Source of the DNA: a virus
DNA: 47,146 bases
Strand: one strand, 5' to 3'
IMG/VR virus record: IMGVR_UViG_3300036841_000075
Span: 1-47,146 of that record
Below the pieces are notes generated by a model, which was not told the origin of the DNA, did not search any database, and was given only the letters and a program-made list of their open reading frames with translations. Made by a program: the position numbers and the translations under genes. The first letter of the stretch is position 1. Each line of letters opens with the position of its first letter. Positions 4,605 to 46,294 of the stretch are shown here, piece after piece.

Positions 4605-4703
4605 TCAGCCCCCCCGAACGAGATTCCAGTGCGGCCCCACGAGCACGTACAGCACCCCCAGGACCACCACGATCGCTACCGCTACGCTCCTCCACATGAC
4701 CAT
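4605..4703 (-). CDS. very small membrane protein (32 aa)
   Basis: It reads MVMWRSVAVAIVVVLGVL and ends HWNLVRGG: one membrane helix with tiny flanks. ATG could be at 4703 or 4697. It overlaps the 3' end of the transglycosylase gene in another frame, so translation is probably coupled. It is short and therefore tentative, but the neighbouring genes have the same character. Confidence 0.45.
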   Translation of the reverse strand: MVMWRSVAVAIVVVLGVLYVLVGPHWNLVRGG

Positions 4704-5062
4704 GCCCCCCAGTCCGTACCGCCGTTGCTGATCTTGTAGGCCGACTCGGCGTTGAACTGGGGGATCCAGTTGAGGATCGGGGAGCGGTCCCCCAGCAGGT
4801 CCGACCAGAGCGTTCGCACCTGGAACGGCCCCACCGACGGCCCCCACTTCTGCGTCGTGAGCGTGCCGTCCCCGACCGCCTGCGGCTTCAGACCGGACTC
4901 GCACGTCGCCACCCGCAGGGCCTTCTCGGTGGCCGCCGGCGAGAACCCGGCTCGCTCGGCGAGCTTGCGGAACTCGGCCGGGTCCGGGTGCTGGTAGCCC
5001 CCCACGTACCCGACGAGCATGAAGAACAGGAAGGCCAGCACGATCCACTTGAGGAGCTTCAT
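4682..5062 (-). CDS. membrane-anchored lytic transglycosylase-like protein
   Basis: A 126-residue protein. Residues 5-22 are a membrane anchor (LKWIVLAFLFFMLVGYV). The rest has a lysozyme-like fold signature: CESGLKP with the likely catalytic Glu55, then GPSVGPFQV in place of the usual GLFQI. It would cut peptidoglycan locally outside the membrane. Such enzymes accompany type IV secretion or conjugation machines (VirB1-like) and phage entry or exit devices. Here it lies between small membrane proteins and downstream of an FtsK-like translocase, so local wall opening for that system is a fair inference. ATG 5062 overlaps the upstream stop. Confidence 0.7.
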   Translation of the reverse strand: MKLLKWIVLAFLFFMLVGYVGGYQHPDPAEFRKLAERAGFSPAATEKALRVATCESGLKPQAVGDGTLTTQKWGPSVGPFQVRTLWSDLLGDRSPILNWIPQFNAESAYKISNGGTDWGAWSCGGA

Positions 5063-5265
5063 CGCGCCACCAGACCCATCGTCATGGCCACCAGGAACAG
5101 GGCCCCGCCGATGATGGCGAGCTTGACCATGGGCCCCCACAGACCGATGAAGACCGACCCCACGAGGAACCCGAGGGCCCCCACGAGGATCGCCGCGTCG
5201 GCCCGTCCGAAGGCGGCGAAGGTGAGCATGAGGCCGAGCAGGCCGACGCCGAGGCCGACCCTCAT
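5059..5265 (-). CDS. small multi-pass membrane protein (68 aa)
   Basis: Two to three hydrophobic segments fill the protein (about residues 3-18, 24-42 and 46-64). It is joined to both neighbours by 4-base overlaps (ATGA at 5262-5265 and 5059-5062). No family recognised. Confidence 0.62.
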   Translation of the reverse strand: MRVGLGVGLLGLMLTFAAFGRADAAILVGALGFLVGSVFIGLWGPMVKLAIIGGALFLVAMTMGLVAR

Positions 5266-5435
5266 CGCAGCACCTCCGCAGCCCGGCTCGATGCCATCGC
5301 CGCCACGACGACGACCCCCATGAGGAACGCCGCCACGATCATGGACACCCCCCAGCCCTTGAACGACCCCCGGCCCAGAAGGAGCCCGACGAGGGCGGCC
5401 ACGACGACCGCCCCAGCCAGGATTGCGTGGGCCAT
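5262..5435 (-). CDS. small two-pass membrane protein (57 aa)
   Basis: It starts MAHAILAGAVVVAALVG, has a GRGSFKGWG turn, then a second hydrophobic segment and a short charged tail (SSRAAEVLR). A small hairpin membrane protein of this shape could be a structural subunit, but no pilin or coat signature is recognised. The start overlaps nothing but lies one base after the upstream TGA. Confidence 0.6.
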   Translation of the reverse strand: MAHAILAGAVVVAALVGLLLGRGSFKGWGVSMIVAAFLMGVVVVAAMASSRAAEVLR

Positions 5436-5436
5436 C

Positions 5437-5706
5437 TCAGGCCCCCCTCTCCGGCGTGAACGCCTCCCGGACGCCCTCGGCGCCGTACACCAGCAGCGGC
5501 ACGGAGAGGGCCGCCACGATGCTCGCCAGCCACGACAGCGGGTGCGACAGCGGCGCCCCCAGCCACACGAACAGCGCCGGGAACAGCCCCACGCCGGCCC
5601 AGCTCGGACCCCCGAGCACCCGGCCGTGTCGGGCCATGCGGTACGCCACGATGGTCCCCGTCCCGACCAGCACCAGCAGCGTCACGAACACCTTGTCTGC
5701 GATCAT
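5437..5706 (-). CDS. three-pass membrane protein (89 aa)
   Basis: Hydrophobic segments lie at about residues 5-21, 38-52 and 58-75, with a basic loop (RMARHGRV) after the first. The start overlaps the stop of the 140-residue membrane protein (ATGA at 5703-5706). No family recognised; it is part of the translocase-linked membrane set. Confidence 0.62.
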   Translation of the reverse strand: MIADKVFVTLLVLVGTGTIVAYRMARHGRVLGGPSWAGVGLFPALFVWLGAPLSHPLSWLASIVAALSVPLLVYGAEGVREAFTPERGA

Positions 5707-6125
5707 CGTCCCCTCCTGACTCGTGCGAACAGACCCCTGCGACCTGCGCTCTGCGGCCCTCCCGGACCTGCTGTCCTGCCCGATGGACCCCGCAGCAGCG
5801 CCCACGCGCCGCCGATCCCGAGGCCCGTCATGAGCCACTGATCGGCGGCGGCCTTGCTCCCAGCGGCGGCCGTCAGGACCCCCCGCTGCGAGTCCCAGCC
5901 GACCGCCAGCAGGGCCAAGATCCCGAGCGCTACGAGCTTCACCGTGCGGCTCGTGCGGCTCGACAGGTAGAGCGCCAGGAGCCCGAAGACGATGAGCCCC
6001 GCCCACAGCATCGGGTTGCCGAGGATGGGGGCCAGCGCCTCCTTCCCCTTGCTCACCGTGGCCGGGTCCACGCTCGGGATCTTGCCAGTATCGACGGTCG
6101 CCTTGACCGCCAGAACCACGTTCAT
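5703..6125 (-). CDS. membrane protein next to the FtsK-like translocase
   Basis: A 140-residue protein with a soluble N-terminal region of about 35 residues, then hydrophobic segments at about 38-55, 61-76 and possibly 98-112. It ends in a very basic, glycine-rich tail (GRRGLFARVRRGR). ATG 6125 overlaps the translocase stop (ATGA), so it is the closest translational partner of the translocase. A role as membrane platform or channel for it is an inference; no family recognised. Confidence 0.62.
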   Translation of the reverse strand: MNVVLAVKATVDTGKIPSVDPATVSKGKEALAPILGNPMLWAGLIVFGLLALYLSSRTSRTVKLVALGILALLAVGWDSQRGVLTAAAGSKAAADQWLMTGLGIGGAWALLRGPSGRTAGPGGPQSAGRRGLFARVRRGR

Positions 6126-7681
6126 GCGTTCTCCTCTCCCGCCGTCTCGGCGCCTCGTACGACCTGCAGATTCGGCCCCTTGCGCTCCCCGATGGCGAGC
6201 ACGATGGCCTTGTGCCACTGGAGGGCCTCGCCGCTCGCCGGCCAGCCCAGCACGTCCCGGACGACCCGGAACGCGGACCACCCGGCGGCGAGTGCGTTTC
6301 TGACCGCTTCGGACACCGCTTCGGGAGCACTTCGGGCCGCTTCGTGAGCGTCAGAGGTCCACTTCGGGACGGGCCACTGAAGCGGTGCCGAAGCGGTAGG
6401 CGAAGTGATGGGCGAAGCGGTACCCCGGCGGAGGGCCTCGGCCCGCTTCGCTATGTCCCGAATGTCCGAGTCCGAGAGGTAGAACGCCTGGAGCCGGACG
6501 GGTGCGGCTCCCTCGTGCAGCAGGTACCCGACGCCCTTCTCGGTGGCGTCGATGCGATGAGCTGGCGCATCCTTGTCCCACCCGTCGCCGAGGATGATGT
6601 TGACCTGCGTAGGCCGCTGGCACCGCAGCGCCCAGCGGAAGACGAACTTGTTGCGCAGCTTCGGCGGCACGACGTCGTAGCGAGGCTCCTGCGTCGCTGC
6701 GATGGGGATGATGCCGGCCGCACGTCCGAGGCTCGCCAGGCGCGTCGAGCGATCGGAGAAGATCGCACCGCGGGTCGGCGAGAACCGGTCCTCCGGGTCG
6801 TCCTTCGTCTTGTCGTCGGTGAACTCGGCCAGCTCATCACAGAACCACGCCAGCGTCGGGAACTCCTCGGACGGCGCCAGAGCTCGCAGGTTGTTGCGCT
6901 GCATGAAGCGGTACCGCCGCCGCATCTCCTCGAGCAGGTTCGCCAGCACAGCGTTGGCCCGCTCCGTGTCGTCCTCGACGAACTCGGCTGCGCAGCCCCG
7001 CCATGCGTTGAGCTCGACGAGCTTGGCGTCGAACAGGTAGAGCTTCGTGAGCGGGTCGAGCGCAGCGGTGGCGACGAGCATCTGCAGCGCCGTGGACTTC
7101 CCGCCGCCGATCTCCCCGGCGAGCAGAAGGTTGCGCTCCCGCATCGTCAGGTGGACGACCGTCCCGTCCTCGGTGAAGCCGACGGGGATCGGGTCCGTGA
7201 ACACCGTGCGCTGCGCGTGCAGCAGGGGCCACGCTGCCGACTTGCCCGGAGCGACGGTCACCTTCTTCGCTGGGATCGGGTCCGGCAGCGGAGGCATCGG
7301 GATCACTACCTCCGGGTCGTCCACGTCCACCGGGTAGGCCGGCACCGGCTCCATGTGGAACGTGCTCGCCGGGATCTGCGGCACCGGCCGGTGGTTCGGC
7401 TCCACCTCGTACGCACGCACCGGCCGGGAAGGTGCAGCGTCGAGCCCCACCTTCTTCGCTGCGACCTCCCGCATGATCGGCCGGGCGTCCACGGCGGCGA
7501 AGGCGATGGCGGCCCAGATGCACGCCAGTACGAGCGTGAGCAGCGAGCCCAGCACCAGCGTGAGCACGAGGCTGTGGACCACCAGCCACACAGCCACGAA
7601 CACCAGCAGCACCGCGGGGACCGTCAGCGCCACCGGCACGTGCCGAGCGTTCGCCCTGAGCCACTGCATCGCCTTGGTCAT
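6122..7681 (-). CDS. membrane-anchored FtsK/SpoIIIE-type DNA translocase
   Basis: A 519-residue protein. Two membrane helices (about 19-38 and 41-64) precede a linker and a RecA-type motor domain. Walker A is GEIGGGKST at 189-197; Walker B is around LAWFCDELAEF (278-287); an ATQEPRYD segment follows at 329-336. The arrangement matches actinobacterial FtsK/TraB double-stranded DNA pumps. The C-terminal part after residue 420 is a repeat-coded linker, then a small helical region (about 465-500) that may bind DNA. ATG 7681 follows GAGGGAAGGG and overlaps the upstream zinc-ribbon stop. It heads an operon of small membrane proteins. The DNA it moves is unknown. Confidence 0.82.
   Translation of the reverse strand: MTKAMQWLRANARHVPVALTVPAVLLVFVAVWLVVHSLVLTLVLGSLLTLVLACIWAAIAFAAVDARPIMREVAAKKVGLDAAPSRPVRAYEVEPNHRPVPQIPASTFHMEPVPAYPVDVDDPEVVIPMPPLPDPIPAKKVTVAPGKSAAWPLLHAQRTVFTDPIPVGFTEDGTVVHLTMRERNLLLAGEIGGGKSTALQMLVATAALDPLTKLYLFDAKLVELNAWRGCAAEFVEDDTERANAVLANLLEEMRRRYRFMQRNNLRALAPSEEFPTLAWFCDELAEFTDDKTKDDPEDRFSPTRGAIFSDRSTRLASLGRAAGIIPIAATQEPRYDVVPPKLRNKFVFRWALRCQRPTQVNIILGDGWDKDAPAHRIDATEKGVGYLLHEGAAPVRLQAFYLSDSDIRDIAKRAEALRRGTASPITSPTASAPLQWPVPKWTSDAHEAARSAPEAVSEAVRNALAAGWSAFRVVRDVLGWPASGEALQWHKAIVLAIGERKGPNLQVVRGAETAGEENA
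6305..6420. repeat. head-to-head array of CGCTTCGG octamers inside the translocase gene
   Basis: Five units read CRCTTCGG on the plus strand, beginning at 6305, 6317, 6328, 6338 and 6360. Four units in the opposite orientation (YGAAGCGG-like) begin at 6378, 6389, 6401 and 6413. A stray direct unit lies at 6444. Spacings are 10-12 bases or twice that, close to one helical turn. The array encodes the linker and start of the C-terminal region of the FtsK-like protein. Such phased arrays are typical of multi-protein binding sites (iterons, parS or clt loci). Confidence 0.6.
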
Positions 7682-7767
7682 CCGCCCTTCCCTCCACACC
7701 ACGTCTTGTGCTTGCCGTTCTGCCCACCGCACTGCGGGCAGGTTCCGTGCTTGCGGTTCGGGTCCAT
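7678..7767 (-). CDS. zinc-ribbon microprotein leading the translocase operon (29 aa)
   Basis: It reads MDPNRKHGTCPQCGGQNG and has a third cysteine at residue 24: a CxxC-x10-C pattern with many His, Lys and Gly residues. ATG 7767 follows AAAGGGA, and the stop overlaps the translocase start (ATGA at 7678-7681). It is the first gene after the leftward promoter and may act as a leader or regulator. It is too short for ordinary gene calling. Confidence 0.6.
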   Translation of the reverse strand: MDPNRKHGTCPQCGGQNGKHKTWCGGKGG

Positions 7768-7797
7768 CTCGTCCCTTTCGAGTTGCGTGATGGAGAC

Positions 7798-7827
7798 AGC
7801 GTACATCCAAGTTGCAGCAGCTTTCAA
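7798..7827 (-). promoter_or_regulatory. candidate leftward promoter of the translocase/membrane operon
   Basis: On the minus strand TTGAAA (7822-7827) and TACGCT (7798-7803) are spaced by 18 bases, giving a start near 7791 and a leader of about 24 bases with a ribosome site before ATG 7767. It lies back to back with the plus-strand promoter at 7812-7840. Confidence 0.5.
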
Positions 7828-7840
7828 GCCGTGCCATGAT
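7812..7840 (+). promoter_or_regulatory. candidate rightward promoter, probably leaderless
   Basis: TTGCAG (7812-7817) and CATGAT (7835-7840) are spaced by 17 bases. The predicted start falls on or beside GTG 7848, which has no ribosome site, so the RHH gene would be made from a leaderless message, as is common in actinobacteria. It overlaps the opposing promoter, so the two may compete. Confidence 0.45.
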
Positions 7841-29483: not shown

Positions 29484-29727
29484 TGTGCGTCCACCCCCTC
29501 CGGCGTAGGAGCTGCACGAACGTTCGACACCAGCGCCAGACGCCGAGTGATCCGTGCTCCCACCGCTCCCGGCCGTCGAGGGAATGGTGTATGTAGAGCC
29601 ACCCGAACGTTCCGTCGTCGCGCTTGACCGGCTCCACAGTGACGCCGCAGGGGCAACCGTCGCCCTCCAACTCGTGCTCGATGAGATCGCCCACCGGATA
29701 GGTGTGGATCACGTCGGGATCGTTCAT
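29473..29727 (-). CDS. hypothetical protein between terminase and portal (84 aa)
   Basis: It starts MNDPDVIHTYPVGDLIEH, has a CPCG motif and strands (GWLYIHHSLDGRERWEHG), and ends with a basic helix. The His/Cys pattern could bind a metal. It overlaps terminase by 4 bases and portal by 11, so it is probably a head-assembly accessory. No family recognised. Confidence 0.6.
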   Translation of the reverse strand: MNDPDVIHTYPVGDLIEHELEGDGCPCGVTVEPVKRDDGTFGWLYIHHSLDGRERWEHGSLGVWRWCRTFVQLLRRRGWTHNGS

Positions 29728-31571
29728 CCGACACTCGCCAGTCTCGGGGGCGGAGTGGGCATGGCCCCCGGCACGGTGCGGTCGAACCCGTCGATCTCGT
29801 CGAGGGAGCGCAGCGCGGGCAGCCACCACTTCGGGAACCACAGAGCCAGCAGCAGGTCGTCGGTGGGCAGGCGCTTGAGCATCTCGTCCACCAGCGGCTG
29901 GAAGGCGTAGCGAGCATCGTAGTCGCCCCAGGGGATCCGGATGTTGCCGTTCTCGACGTCGGGGCCGAGCGTGTCGAAACCCATCTCCTTGTGGCCTTTG
30001 TTCGGTCCGTCGGTGTGGTGGTAGAAGACCCGGATGCCGAGCTGCTGGCGCCACTCGTTGAAGTCCTCGGTCTGGATGAAGAAGTCCGCCGAGTTCTTCT
30101 CGATGGTGAGTGCCCTTGGCCGGTAACGCTCCCCCCACTGGCGCAGCAGCCCCAGCATGTCCGGCGTCTGCAAGCGCGCCCGGCGGATGTCGAGCAGGCG
30201 GGGAGCGTACGTCCTGCCCTGCTGCGGGATGTCCATGACCAGCGCCCCGCAGAACTTCGTCGGCGACGGGTCGATCGAGATGACCCGGACGGTGGGGATC
30301 TCCTTGCCGTCGCGCATGACGGGGGACCGGACGCCGAGGCCCCGGTCCTTGTCGACGCAGCCGGGGAACCCGTTGCGGCCGTGGATCCAGTCCTCCCGGA
30401 ACCGGGCGATGCCCGACCCCGCCGCGTTCTGCTGGTGGACGCACTCGAAGATTTGCTCGCCGAGCAGCGACCGCTGCGCCATGACCCGGCGCCAGGGCCA
30501 CTTCTCCGGGCAGAGCACGACCCGGTTGCCCCGGTCGAGGATGGTCGGCTCCCGGACCGTGGCGAAGATCGGCCGCACCTCGTCGGCCTCCTCGGGGTCC
30601 TCCTCCTCGAGCGACGGCATGGTCTCGAGCTGCATGTAGGGCGAGTTCTCGACGGGGAGCTCGGCGCCGGTGGCCGATATCTCGGCGTAGGTGTCATCGA
30701 GCCGACTGAAGATGTGGACCCGCAGCCACCGGATGATGTCGTCGGCGTCCTCCGGGGTCCGGCAGTTGTCGAGGTCGGCGACGTCGTCGAGCTTCAGCCG
30801 GTTGAACCCACGGCCGAGGGCCTTGGACCGCTCCCCCATCGCCGTGAGCGAGTAGTCCCCCGACAGGATGGCCCGCTGCCGGCCGGCGACGGTGAGCGAG
30901 TACGTGGACGACTGCCAGATCGCCGTGGAGTCCTTGAAGCGCCCGTAGGCGGCGATCAGCTTGTCGTTGAACTCCAGCCGGTTGGCGACGGCGTACCAGT
31001 TCTTGCCGGCCTGCTGCTTGGAGGCGGCCACCATCCCCACCTGCAGGTCCCGCAGCGGATTGGCCGGGTTCTCGTAGTACTCCCAGGGGTAGCCCCCGCC
31101 GCACATGTGCCAGACGGTTCGAAGCGTGGTGATCGACTCCGTCTTGCCGTGCCGGGGGCCAGCCATGATGAGGGCGAACTGGTGCTCGTCGACGAACTTG
31201 GACCACCGCACCTGGCAGTCGAACAGGTCCCGCTCCTCGAAGCGGCGGCACCAGAACACGAAGTCCCGCAGAGCCTCCAGATCGTCGGTGTTGTGGATGT
31301 CACCCACGAAGCACTTCGGTGGCGGCCGGTCCCGCTCGTAGTCCTGGAGGGCCTCGACGTTGGTGGCGGGCCGGGAGCCGGTACGAGACGACGGGGCATC
31401 CGGGGAGAGGGTGAGGCCTGCCACGATCCGCATGACCGTCCGGCGGTCCGGGGGCCGTTCCCGGCCTTTCCAGAGGGTCGGATGTGACCGGATTTCCTCG
31501 GTTGTCCACCCGTCGTTGGCGAGTGCGCCGATCCTGCGGCGCTGCGCAGTGGTGACCCGCTCTCCCGGCAT
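29724..31571 (-). CDS. terL: terminase large subunit
   Basis: A 615-residue DNA-packaging motor and nuclease. Residues 5-50 form an HTH-like segment (AQRRRIGALANDGWTTEEI, DRRTVMRIV) not usual in large subunits. The ATPase has Walker A GPRHGKTES at 138-146 and Walker B LKLDDV at 259-264. The C-terminal nuclease includes VISIDPSPTKFCG and later acidic residues. There is no separate small-subunit gene nearby, so the N-terminal segment might recognise DNA. Start ATG 31571 lacks a ribosome site and lies 7 bases after a TACAAT box, implying a leaderless message. Confidence 0.85.
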   Translation of the reverse strand: MPGERVTTAQRRRIGALANDGWTTEEIRSHPTLWKGRERPPDRRTVMRIVAGLTLSPDAPSSRTGSRPATNVEALQDYERDRPPPKCFVGDIHNTDDLEALRDFVFWCRRFEERDLFDCQVRWSKFVDEHQFALIMAGPRHGKTESITTLRTVWHMCGGGYPWEYYENPANPLRDLQVGMVAASKQQAGKNWYAVANRLEFNDKLIAAYGRFKDSTAIWQSSTYSLTVAGRQRAILSGDYSLTAMGERSKALGRGFNRLKLDDVADLDNCRTPEDADDIIRWLRVHIFSRLDDTYAEISATGAELPVENSPYMQLETMPSLEEEDPEEADEVRPIFATVREPTILDRGNRVVLCPEKWPWRRVMAQRSLLGEQIFECVHQQNAAGSGIARFREDWIHGRNGFPGCVDKDRGLGVRSPVMRDGKEIPTVRVISIDPSPTKFCGALVMDIPQQGRTYAPRLLDIRRARLQTPDMLGLLRQWGERYRPRALTIEKNSADFFIQTEDFNEWRQQLGIRVFYHHTDGPNKGHKEMGFDTLGPDVENGNIRIPWGDYDARYAFQPLVDEMLKRLPTDDLLLALWFPKWWLPALRSLDEIDGFDRTVPGAMPTPPPRLASVG

Positions 31572-44875: not shown

Positions 44876-45046
44876 ATGCCCATCCGCGAACCCGAAGAGA
44901 CTGTCCTCTCCGAGGAGTTGAAAGCCGCTTACGCCCTCATCCGCACCCTGCACCGCGACATCCTCAGGCTGGGCTTCTACAGGCGTGCTCTCACCGAGCA
45001 GGAGCAGATCACCCTCAAGGCCGCCATCGAGGCAGGCGCCCGATGA
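44876..45046 (+). CDS. small helical protein (56 aa)
   Basis: It starts MPIREPEETVLSEELKAAY and is helical throughout (ALIRTLHRDILRLGFYRRAL). ATG 44876 follows AAGGAG. Its stop overlaps the transporter start (ATGA), so its product level is tied to the transporter. No family recognised. Confidence 0.58.
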   Translation: MPIREPEETVLSEELKAAYALIRTLHRDILRLGFYRRALTEQEQITLKAAIEAGAR

Positions 45047-45546
45047 AGCCCCGGCATCTCCTGTTCCCCGCCTACGTGGGCACCATCGTGGGGGCCAACT
45101 GGGCCATAGCTACCTTCGGCGCCGTGCCCGTCGGGTTCGGGCTCTTGGCCCCTGCAGGCGTTTACTGCGCCGGACTGGCATTCACGCTCCGGGATTTACT
45201 GCACGATGCGTTCGGCCGCCGAGCCGCAGTTATCGCCATCGGCGCAGGAGCCTTGCTGTCGGTTACGACCGGGGGGCGGCTGGCCCTCGCCAGCGGCGTT
45301 GCATTCCTGCTCAGCGAGCTGGCGGACCTCGCCGTCTATGAGCCCCTGCGGCGGCGCGGATGGCTCCGTGCGGTGTTCGCAAGCAACGTGGTTGGGCTGA
45401 TCGTGGACTCGGCTCTGTTCCTCTGGTTGGCATTCGGAAGCCTCTCGTTTCTCGCCGGTCAGGTCGTCGGCAAGACCTGGATGACCCTTCTCGCCATCGT
45501 CGTACTGGGGGCACTGCGCCGTGGAGTTTCTGCTCGGTACGCATGA
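45043..45546 (+). CDS. VUT-family transporter (YhhQ-like, 7-deazaguanine precursor uptake)
   Basis: A 167-residue membrane protein with five to six helices. The family signature is visible: TIVGANWAIATFG near the start, then CAGLAFTLRDLLHDAFGRR, AFLLSELADLAVYEPLRRR and VGLIVDSALFLWLAFG. YhhQ/VUT proteins import preQ0 or preQ1, bases for queuosine. Its 3' end overlaps the DpdA-like gene by 26 bases, so the two are almost certainly made together. The inferred job is to bring a deazaguanine base into the infected cell for DNA modification. Substrate is inferred, not seen. Confidence 0.78.
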   Translation: MKPRHLLFPAYVGTIVGANWAIATFGAVPVGFGLLAPAGVYCAGLAFTLRDLLHDAFGRRAAVIAIGAGALLSVTTGGRLALASGVAFLLSELADLAVYEPLRRRGWLRAVFASNVVGLIVDSALFLWLAFGSLSFLAGQVVGKTWMTLLAIVVLGALRRGVSARYA

Positions 45547-46294
45547 GGTGTCGTGGCTGAGAAGAACAACCGTTCCTCTCTTCGTCAGCCACCGGCGTTT
45601 GGCCAAGCGCAAGTATTTGCCCCGTGCCTTAGGACCATGGGCGCTCGACAGCGGAGGCTACACGGAGCTCAATATGCACGGCCAGTGGGTCACGACAGAA
45701 CCCGAATACGTGGACGCGGTCCGGCGCTACACCGCTGACATTGGCGTTTTGCAGTGGGCTGCGCCGATGGACTGGATGTGCGAACCGTGGGTGGTAAGCA
45801 AGACAGGCTTTAGTGTTGTTGAGCACCAGCACCGGACTGTGGACAACTACTGCCGGCTGCGCCAGATGGCCCCCGATCTGCCTTTCATTCCCGTGCTGCA
45901 GGGTTACGAGCGGGCCGACTATGACCGCTGCATCGGGTTCTACGAAGAGGCTGGCGTTGACCTCTGGAGGGTGCCTCTGGTGGGACTCGGGACCATGTGC
46001 CGGCGCCAAGGCGAGAAGGACATCGAGCGCATCGTGACCGACCTGGCCCTCCTGAATCTGCCGCTTCACGGGTTCGGTATAAAGATCCGGGGGCTCAAGC
46101 AGTACGGGTGGGCGCTTGTCTCGGCCGATTCGATGGCATGGTCGTTGCGAGCCCGCCGACACGAGGCCCCCATGCTTCCCGGCTGCACCCACAAGACGTG
46201 TGCCAACTGCTTCGACTACGCCCACCATTGGCGTCTGCACGACGTCCTGCCCACGCTCGTCAACCAGCAACCCCGGATGCTCCGGGCCGGATAA
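45521..46294 (+). CDS. dpdA: DpdA-family DNA-guanine transglycosylase (deazapurine insertion)
   Basis: A 257-residue relative of tRNA-guanine transglycosylase. It has ALDSGGYTEL with Asp43, then WAAPMDWMCEP (80-89), FIPVLQGYERADYDR, VGLGTMCRRQ (154-163), LHGFGIK (182-188) and VSADSMAWS (200-208). A zinc-type cluster follows (Cys222, Cys227, Cys230, then His). This order matches phage DpdA proteins, which exchange guanine in DNA for a 7-deazaguanine such as preQ0 and so resist restriction. No synthesis genes (folE, queD, queE, queC) are present; the overlapping VUT transporter suggests salvage. GTG 45521 is the only reasonable start. Confidence 0.82.
   Translation: MEFLLGTHEVSWLRRTTVPLFVSHRRLAKRKYLPRALGPWALDSGGYTELNMHGQWVTTEPEYVDAVRRYTADIGVLQWAAPMDWMCEPWVVSKTGFSVVEHQHRTVDNYCRLRQMAPDLPFIPVLQGYERADYDRCIGFYEEAGVDLWRVPLVGLGTMCRRQGEKDIERIVTDLALLNLPLHGFGIKIRGLKQYGWALVSADSMAWSLRARRHEAPMLPGCTHKTCANCFDYAHHWRLHDVLPTLVNQQPRMLRAG

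Follow-up and report, generated by a model that had tools for sequence, protein, structure and literature searches.

Background

FtsK and SpoIIIE read short oriented motifs, KOPS in the case of FtsK (through its gamma domain) and SRS in the case of SpoIIIE, by means of a C-terminal DNA-reading domain. TraB recognises repeated 8-bp motifs via its C-terminal domain (PMC3583192), parS of SCP2 is positioned inside the coding sequence of parT, the gene of its own binder (PMC12260392), and the AICEs of Actinobacteria have an integrase, a replication gene and an FtsK-type translocase in one element (PMC3218068).

We report that a phage gene for an FtsK/SpoIIIE-type translocase has an array of nine short units between the parts encoding the motor and the C-terminal domain, that other translocase genes have arrays at the equivalent position, and that their presence is linked to this domain. 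Our data make it likely that the array is a cis-acting recognition/loading site of the translocase whose gene holds it, which would be bound by the encoded protein. The locus shares with the Streptomyces TraB/clt systems (TRS octamers; pSVH1, pJV1 and pWTY27) an FtsK/SpoIIIE-type motor, an array of short repeats that adjoins the motor's own gene or is at its 3' end, a C-terminal DNA-reading domain (putative in our case) and a motif that varies, between plasmids there and between elements here. It differs in that the array is part of the coding sequence, where it separates motor from reader domain, and forms two mirror blocks, that the models of the reader show three helices and lack a wing, and that the host record is that of a tailed phage. 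FtsK gamma/KOPS and SpoIIIE/SRS likewise combine a translocase having a C-terminal reader with short motifs, but KOPS and SRS are dispersed along the chromosome and not clustered in the translocase gene. ParT-parS resembles our locus in that the site is embedded in the gene of its binder (presumed, here), while the protein is ParB-like, the site is one 18-bp inverted repeat and there is no motor. The three parts of the AICEs are also present in several array-bearing regions in our sample from the phylum of a Chloroflexota MAG, which differ from AICEs in phylum and motor family. The best reading is that the array works like Streptomyces TraB/clt, yet it is not a clear member of that group.

Methods

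The window, i.e. the whole stretch of DNA analysed, is an IMG/VR record of 47,146 bases, taken whole. Motif scans covered 2.9 million viral contigs, and the first pattern (two units at a step of 12) gave at least 120 stretches from viral contigs. In a forward test the array word of L274, a locus found by protein homology, was used in convergent arrangement as a pattern on all viral contigs. Homologues were retrieved using a profile of L008 and L223 and then a wider one (301 and 400 genomes sampled), the sampled genomes being those of the phylum of the Chloroflexota MAG used as centre, with the phylum as given in the title of the MAG. For synonymous shuffles the protein was kept fixed and the codons were redrawn from the gene's own usage; in the blind test we scored any 6-mer recurring beyond such shuffles in the last 390 bases of the gene.

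Results

The translocase gene (6122-7837, minus strand) encodes 571 amino acids and matches Pfam PF01580 (FtsK_SpoIIIE; 8.5e-14) and phrog_1358 (8e-38, residues 216-472). According to the PHROG match range and the sequence, the motor domain covers residues 216-472 (6422-7192, minus strand) with the Walker A motif GEIGGGKS. The short C-terminal domain, about residues 503-555 (6173-6331, minus strand) as judged from an AF2 model and a profile, is predicted to be HTH-like and is presumed to be the reader of the array. The first-pass annotation had asked whether the C-terminal 50 residues model as a winged helix, which the AF2 models do not support: they give three helices, zero strands and no wing, with a pLDDT of 62 (low confidence) for the window and 83.7 for the corresponding domain of L223, a viral contig described below. 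Sequence searches with the C-terminal domain gave weak HTH matches and nothing stronger, and Foldseek with the L223 domain model gave zero significant matches. Across the family the domain follows the pattern xxVxxxLxxGxSxxxIxxxxxGxxGGxxYQxA; the window core scored 11.7 bits on a ten-member profile built without it, more than all 2,000 of its own shuffles, which lends modest support to homology with the family domain.

The array (6305-6420) consists of nine CRCTTC units, consensus CCRCTTCGG, five in plus and four in minus orientation, arranged mirror-symmetrically about 6362. The first half-array (6305-6367, plus strand; GAAG-type on the coding strand) has units at 6305, 6317, 6328, 6338 and 6360, i.e. 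at steps of 12, 11, 10 and 22 bases, and the second (6377-6420, minus strand; CTTC-type on the coding strand) has units at 6379, 6390, 6402 and 6414, at steps of 11, 12 and 12 bases; the junction between them is 19 bases, start to start. The symmetry noted in the first-pass annotation is borne out, with mirror pairs centred at 6362.0, 6362.0, 6361.5 and 6361.0 and the fifth unit on the centre at 6362.5. Its nine CRCTTCGG units hold in number, orientation and spacing (10-12 bases, one step of 22) for the shorter CRCTTC, while the full octamer is present in only five of the nine (plus strand at 6305, 6317, 6328 and 6360; minus strand at 6388-6395), the deviating units being CGCTTCGT, CGCTTCAG, CACTTCGC and CGCTTCGC. 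Its "one turn per unit" is approximate, the prevailing spacing in the arrays of relatives being 12 bases (four codons), and its placement of the array in the translocase linker was nearly right: about residues 473-512 are encoded, which is the linker and, of the C-terminal domain, the beginning of the first predicted helix. A tenth CRCTTC (6444-6449, plus strand) is outside the symmetric block, in a KRAEALR segment conserved in relatives, and is probably incidental. As a control, the GACCCGGA octamers of pSVH1 were located; they follow the stop codon of traB at a distance of no more than about 110 bases.

The core word formed clusters of up to four within 125 bases in 300 order-2 Markov genomes, compared to nine observed, and among all 130-base tiles of the window the tile at 6301 had the top count of any 6-mer. 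Synonymous shuffles (20,000 trials) averaged near 1.5 units and reached six at most, versus ten observed in the 180-base region; in line with the DNA-site reading of the first-pass annotation, codon-preserving shuffling thus does not reproduce the cluster. Since the nine units occupy all three codon frames, neither the amino acid sequence nor codon choice accounts for the array, which is under selection at the DNA level. A two-orientation k-mer statistic based on 4- and 5-mers did not discriminate in GC-rich genes.

Among the listed matches to the first pattern, only L008 had a comparable array, with nine CACTTCG-type units (five plus, four minus), and a second DNA pattern applied to the viral contigs gave L223, which also has an array in two orientations. 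Both arrays are inside FtsK/HerA-type ATPase genes, between the motor and a C-terminal domain. As these two were retrieved via the motif, the common word is not independent evidence; the gene context is. Where they align, the two proteins share 39% identity; their linkers cannot be aligned, and still the nucleotide units persist in both. BLAST of either protein against the window protein revealed no similarity at 1e-3; the L008 protein had no match among phages and the L223 protein none among plasmids. L008, where by sequence a ParA-like gene lies immediately upstream of that for the translocase, looks like a plasmid or an integrative element; it is labelled viral in IMG/VR, as are L223 and L367-L373. 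The forward test with the L274 pattern, CACTTCC, matched eight contigs, and in six of these the match is in a translocase linker preceding a C-terminal domain of the same kind. The six represent three distinct elements (L367, L368 and L373 being the same, as are L369 and L370, with L371 as the third) with mutual identities of 26-43%.

Other repeats were also seen in the scans. In L372, seven GGGAAGTGCG-type repeats in both orientations (1110-1260), with no ORF over 200 amino acids across them, may represent a similar site in an intergenic region. L122 (5034-5073), L124 (5805-6190) and L125 (9665-9795) have inverted CACTTCG-type repeats that are not in translocase genes, and the L122-L125 repeats were rejected as relatives of the array because translocase genes are not involved; the L122 repeat occupies the end of a long ORF, VapE-type helicase-like by eye. 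The one-orientation arrays in L107, L131-L133, L135, L140 and L144 were rejected as sites since they look like protein repeats. A strict three-unit scan of genome contigs listed 22 matches, none of them a two-orientation array in a translocase gene.

For the homologues found by protein that reach into the C-terminal domain, the array words are RCTTCCA (L271), CCCACTTCC (L274), CCCCTTC (L276), CGGCTAC (L325) and GAAACC (L328). The motif drifts across the family as CTTCGG, ACTTCC, CCCTTC, GGCTAC and GGAAAC; in agreement with the first-pass annotation's DNA-level reading, the units persist or drift in concert next to the same kind of C-terminal domain while the linker protein is unalignable. Distant relatives with other C-terminal ends have arrays too, GGAAAC in both orientations in L339 and GGAACG/CGTTCC in L349. 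The blind test was significant in five of the eight domain-bearing members found independently of the motif (L271, L274, L276, L325 and L328), L325 being borderline with p 0.0525 for 6-mers and 0.0075 for 7-mers. The remaining three (L272, L275 and L326) did not reach significance, and repeats seen in them by eye are unsupported by this k-mer test. None of the 22 translocases grouped as having no such linker and domain reached 0.05 on 6-mers; one of them, L348, has a one-orientation 7-mer repeat (p 0.0175). The co-occurrence of array and domain (5/8 versus 0/22) gives a Fisher p of 0.0004, with groups formed by eye from the C-termini, unblinded.

The proteins closest to the window protein in the motor, from Actinomycetota and up to 45% identical to it, stop where the motor ends, and their genes are devoid of an array. 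Searching the viral contigs by exact peptides gave no relatives of the window protein with a single-sequence query and seven with an alignment query, none of the seven having the array or the domain; the last 390 bases of the Mycobacteriophage Baka FtsK gene likewise have no array. As judged from these comparisons the array accompanies the C-terminal domain and not the motor.

In the sample from the Chloroflexota-MAG phylum several array-bearing regions have an integrase nearby, and a replication gene (D5_N, Prim-Pol or G2P-type Rep) was found in three array-bearing regions examined. This AICE-like make-up would fit conjugal transfer. Regions of AICE-like appearance are L357, L358, L359 and L361, in which an integrase is near an FtsK/HerA translocase gene, with a replication gene in L357, L358 and L361. 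In the translocase linker of L344 there are CACGAAGGG direct repeats coding for HEGHEGHEG (7-mer p 0.06), and these have the look of a repeat at the protein level or a mobile repeat, not of a site.

Discussion

By analogy with TraB/clt, the array may serve as the site where the translocase is loaded on the phage's own genome. The C-terminal helical domain of each subunit would bind one CCRCTTCGG unit, and the two opposed blocks with their 10-12 base steps would bring the subunits to approximately the same side of the double helix. We infer loading and direction: motor rings could assemble at the array and so be loaded on their own genome and not on others, and the motor would then pump this DNA, either into another cell (TraB does so for Streptomyces plasmids) or through a septum. 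With the site between motor and reader domain, reader and address would be inherited and exchanged as one cassette. The first-pass annotation had already compared the array to clt, and its idea of a recognition site is upheld by the shuffles and the homologues; for the winged helix and the role in packaging no support was found.

The array might instead be a site of another function, be it partition (parS-like), replication iterons or a repressor operator, which by chance is in the translocase gene and is bound by a different protein. The origin iterons of lambda, inside gene O, are a precedent for a gene-embedded site. The position of parS inside parT of SCP2 (PMC12260392) is a second precedent, and partition stays a rival because of the ParA-like gene in L008. 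We nevertheless consider such a site unlikely, since the array tracks the C-terminal domain across elements with differing replication genes and is absent from the 22 translocases grouped as lacking it. That the translocase instead blocks transcription of its own gene, the array being an autoregulatory operator with no role in loading, would agree with a site inside the gene of the presumed reader; a 3' position far away from the likely promoter speaks against it, however, as does the function of the known counterpart, clt, in transfer (PMC3583192), making this very unlikely.

One-orientation repeats at a step of 12 that resemble protein repeats (L107, L131 and L132) do contain CTTC/GAAG words, as expected if the array were only a linker rich in repetitive Ala/Ser/Pro/Glu with biased codons. 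This explanation is highly improbable given the two orientations, the units persisting in L008 and L223 despite their unalignable linkers, and the count reached by 0 of 20,000 synonymous shuffles, which together with the three reading frames refutes it for the window. Next to no weight can be given to a packaging-control site for the phage terminase, which the first-pass annotation had listed: a gene for the terminase large subunit is present in the record (29724-31571), but no evidence for such a role was found, and like arrays occur in elements that have an integrase and in bacterial genomes, where packaging genes were not seen nearby.

If the array is the loading site of its translocase, self-recognition of the clt type is not confined to Streptomyces plasmids but extends to phages and elements in Chloroflexota genomes, and a site inside the reader's own gene would explain how reader and address stay matched upon exchange. 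Reader domains and their DNA motifs, in many naturally occurring pairs, would then constitute a readable code, from which specificity could be learned from sequence, and transfer elements would be recognisable in metagenomes by DNA pattern alone. We tentatively propose a principle of self-addressing for FtsK/HerA translocases of phages and integrative elements, where the gene carries, as coding DNA between motor and reader, the address that its protein reads; reader and address might drift together and move as a cassette between unrelated motors, and one such cassette might give a tailed phage its own route of transfer or partition.

In the tailed phage the role of the array may be DNA transfer or partition. 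The record has tail and endolysin-like genes; no Phage_integrase or Resolvase match was found in it, so that a need for transfer is not evident, and the window proteins scanned, a part of all ORFs, gave no ParA/ParB match. Small ORFs on the same strand downstream of the translocase gene (4682-6125, minus strand), membrane-protein-like by eye at least at about 5704-6125, appear by eye to resemble tra-spd clusters. Megablast of the first 25 kb of the record against phages matched nothing. Elsewhere in the window (45043-46294, plus strand) a Vut_1-type transporter gene adjoins a queuine tRNA-ribosyltransferase gene, and this region is probably a queuosine module of the phage.
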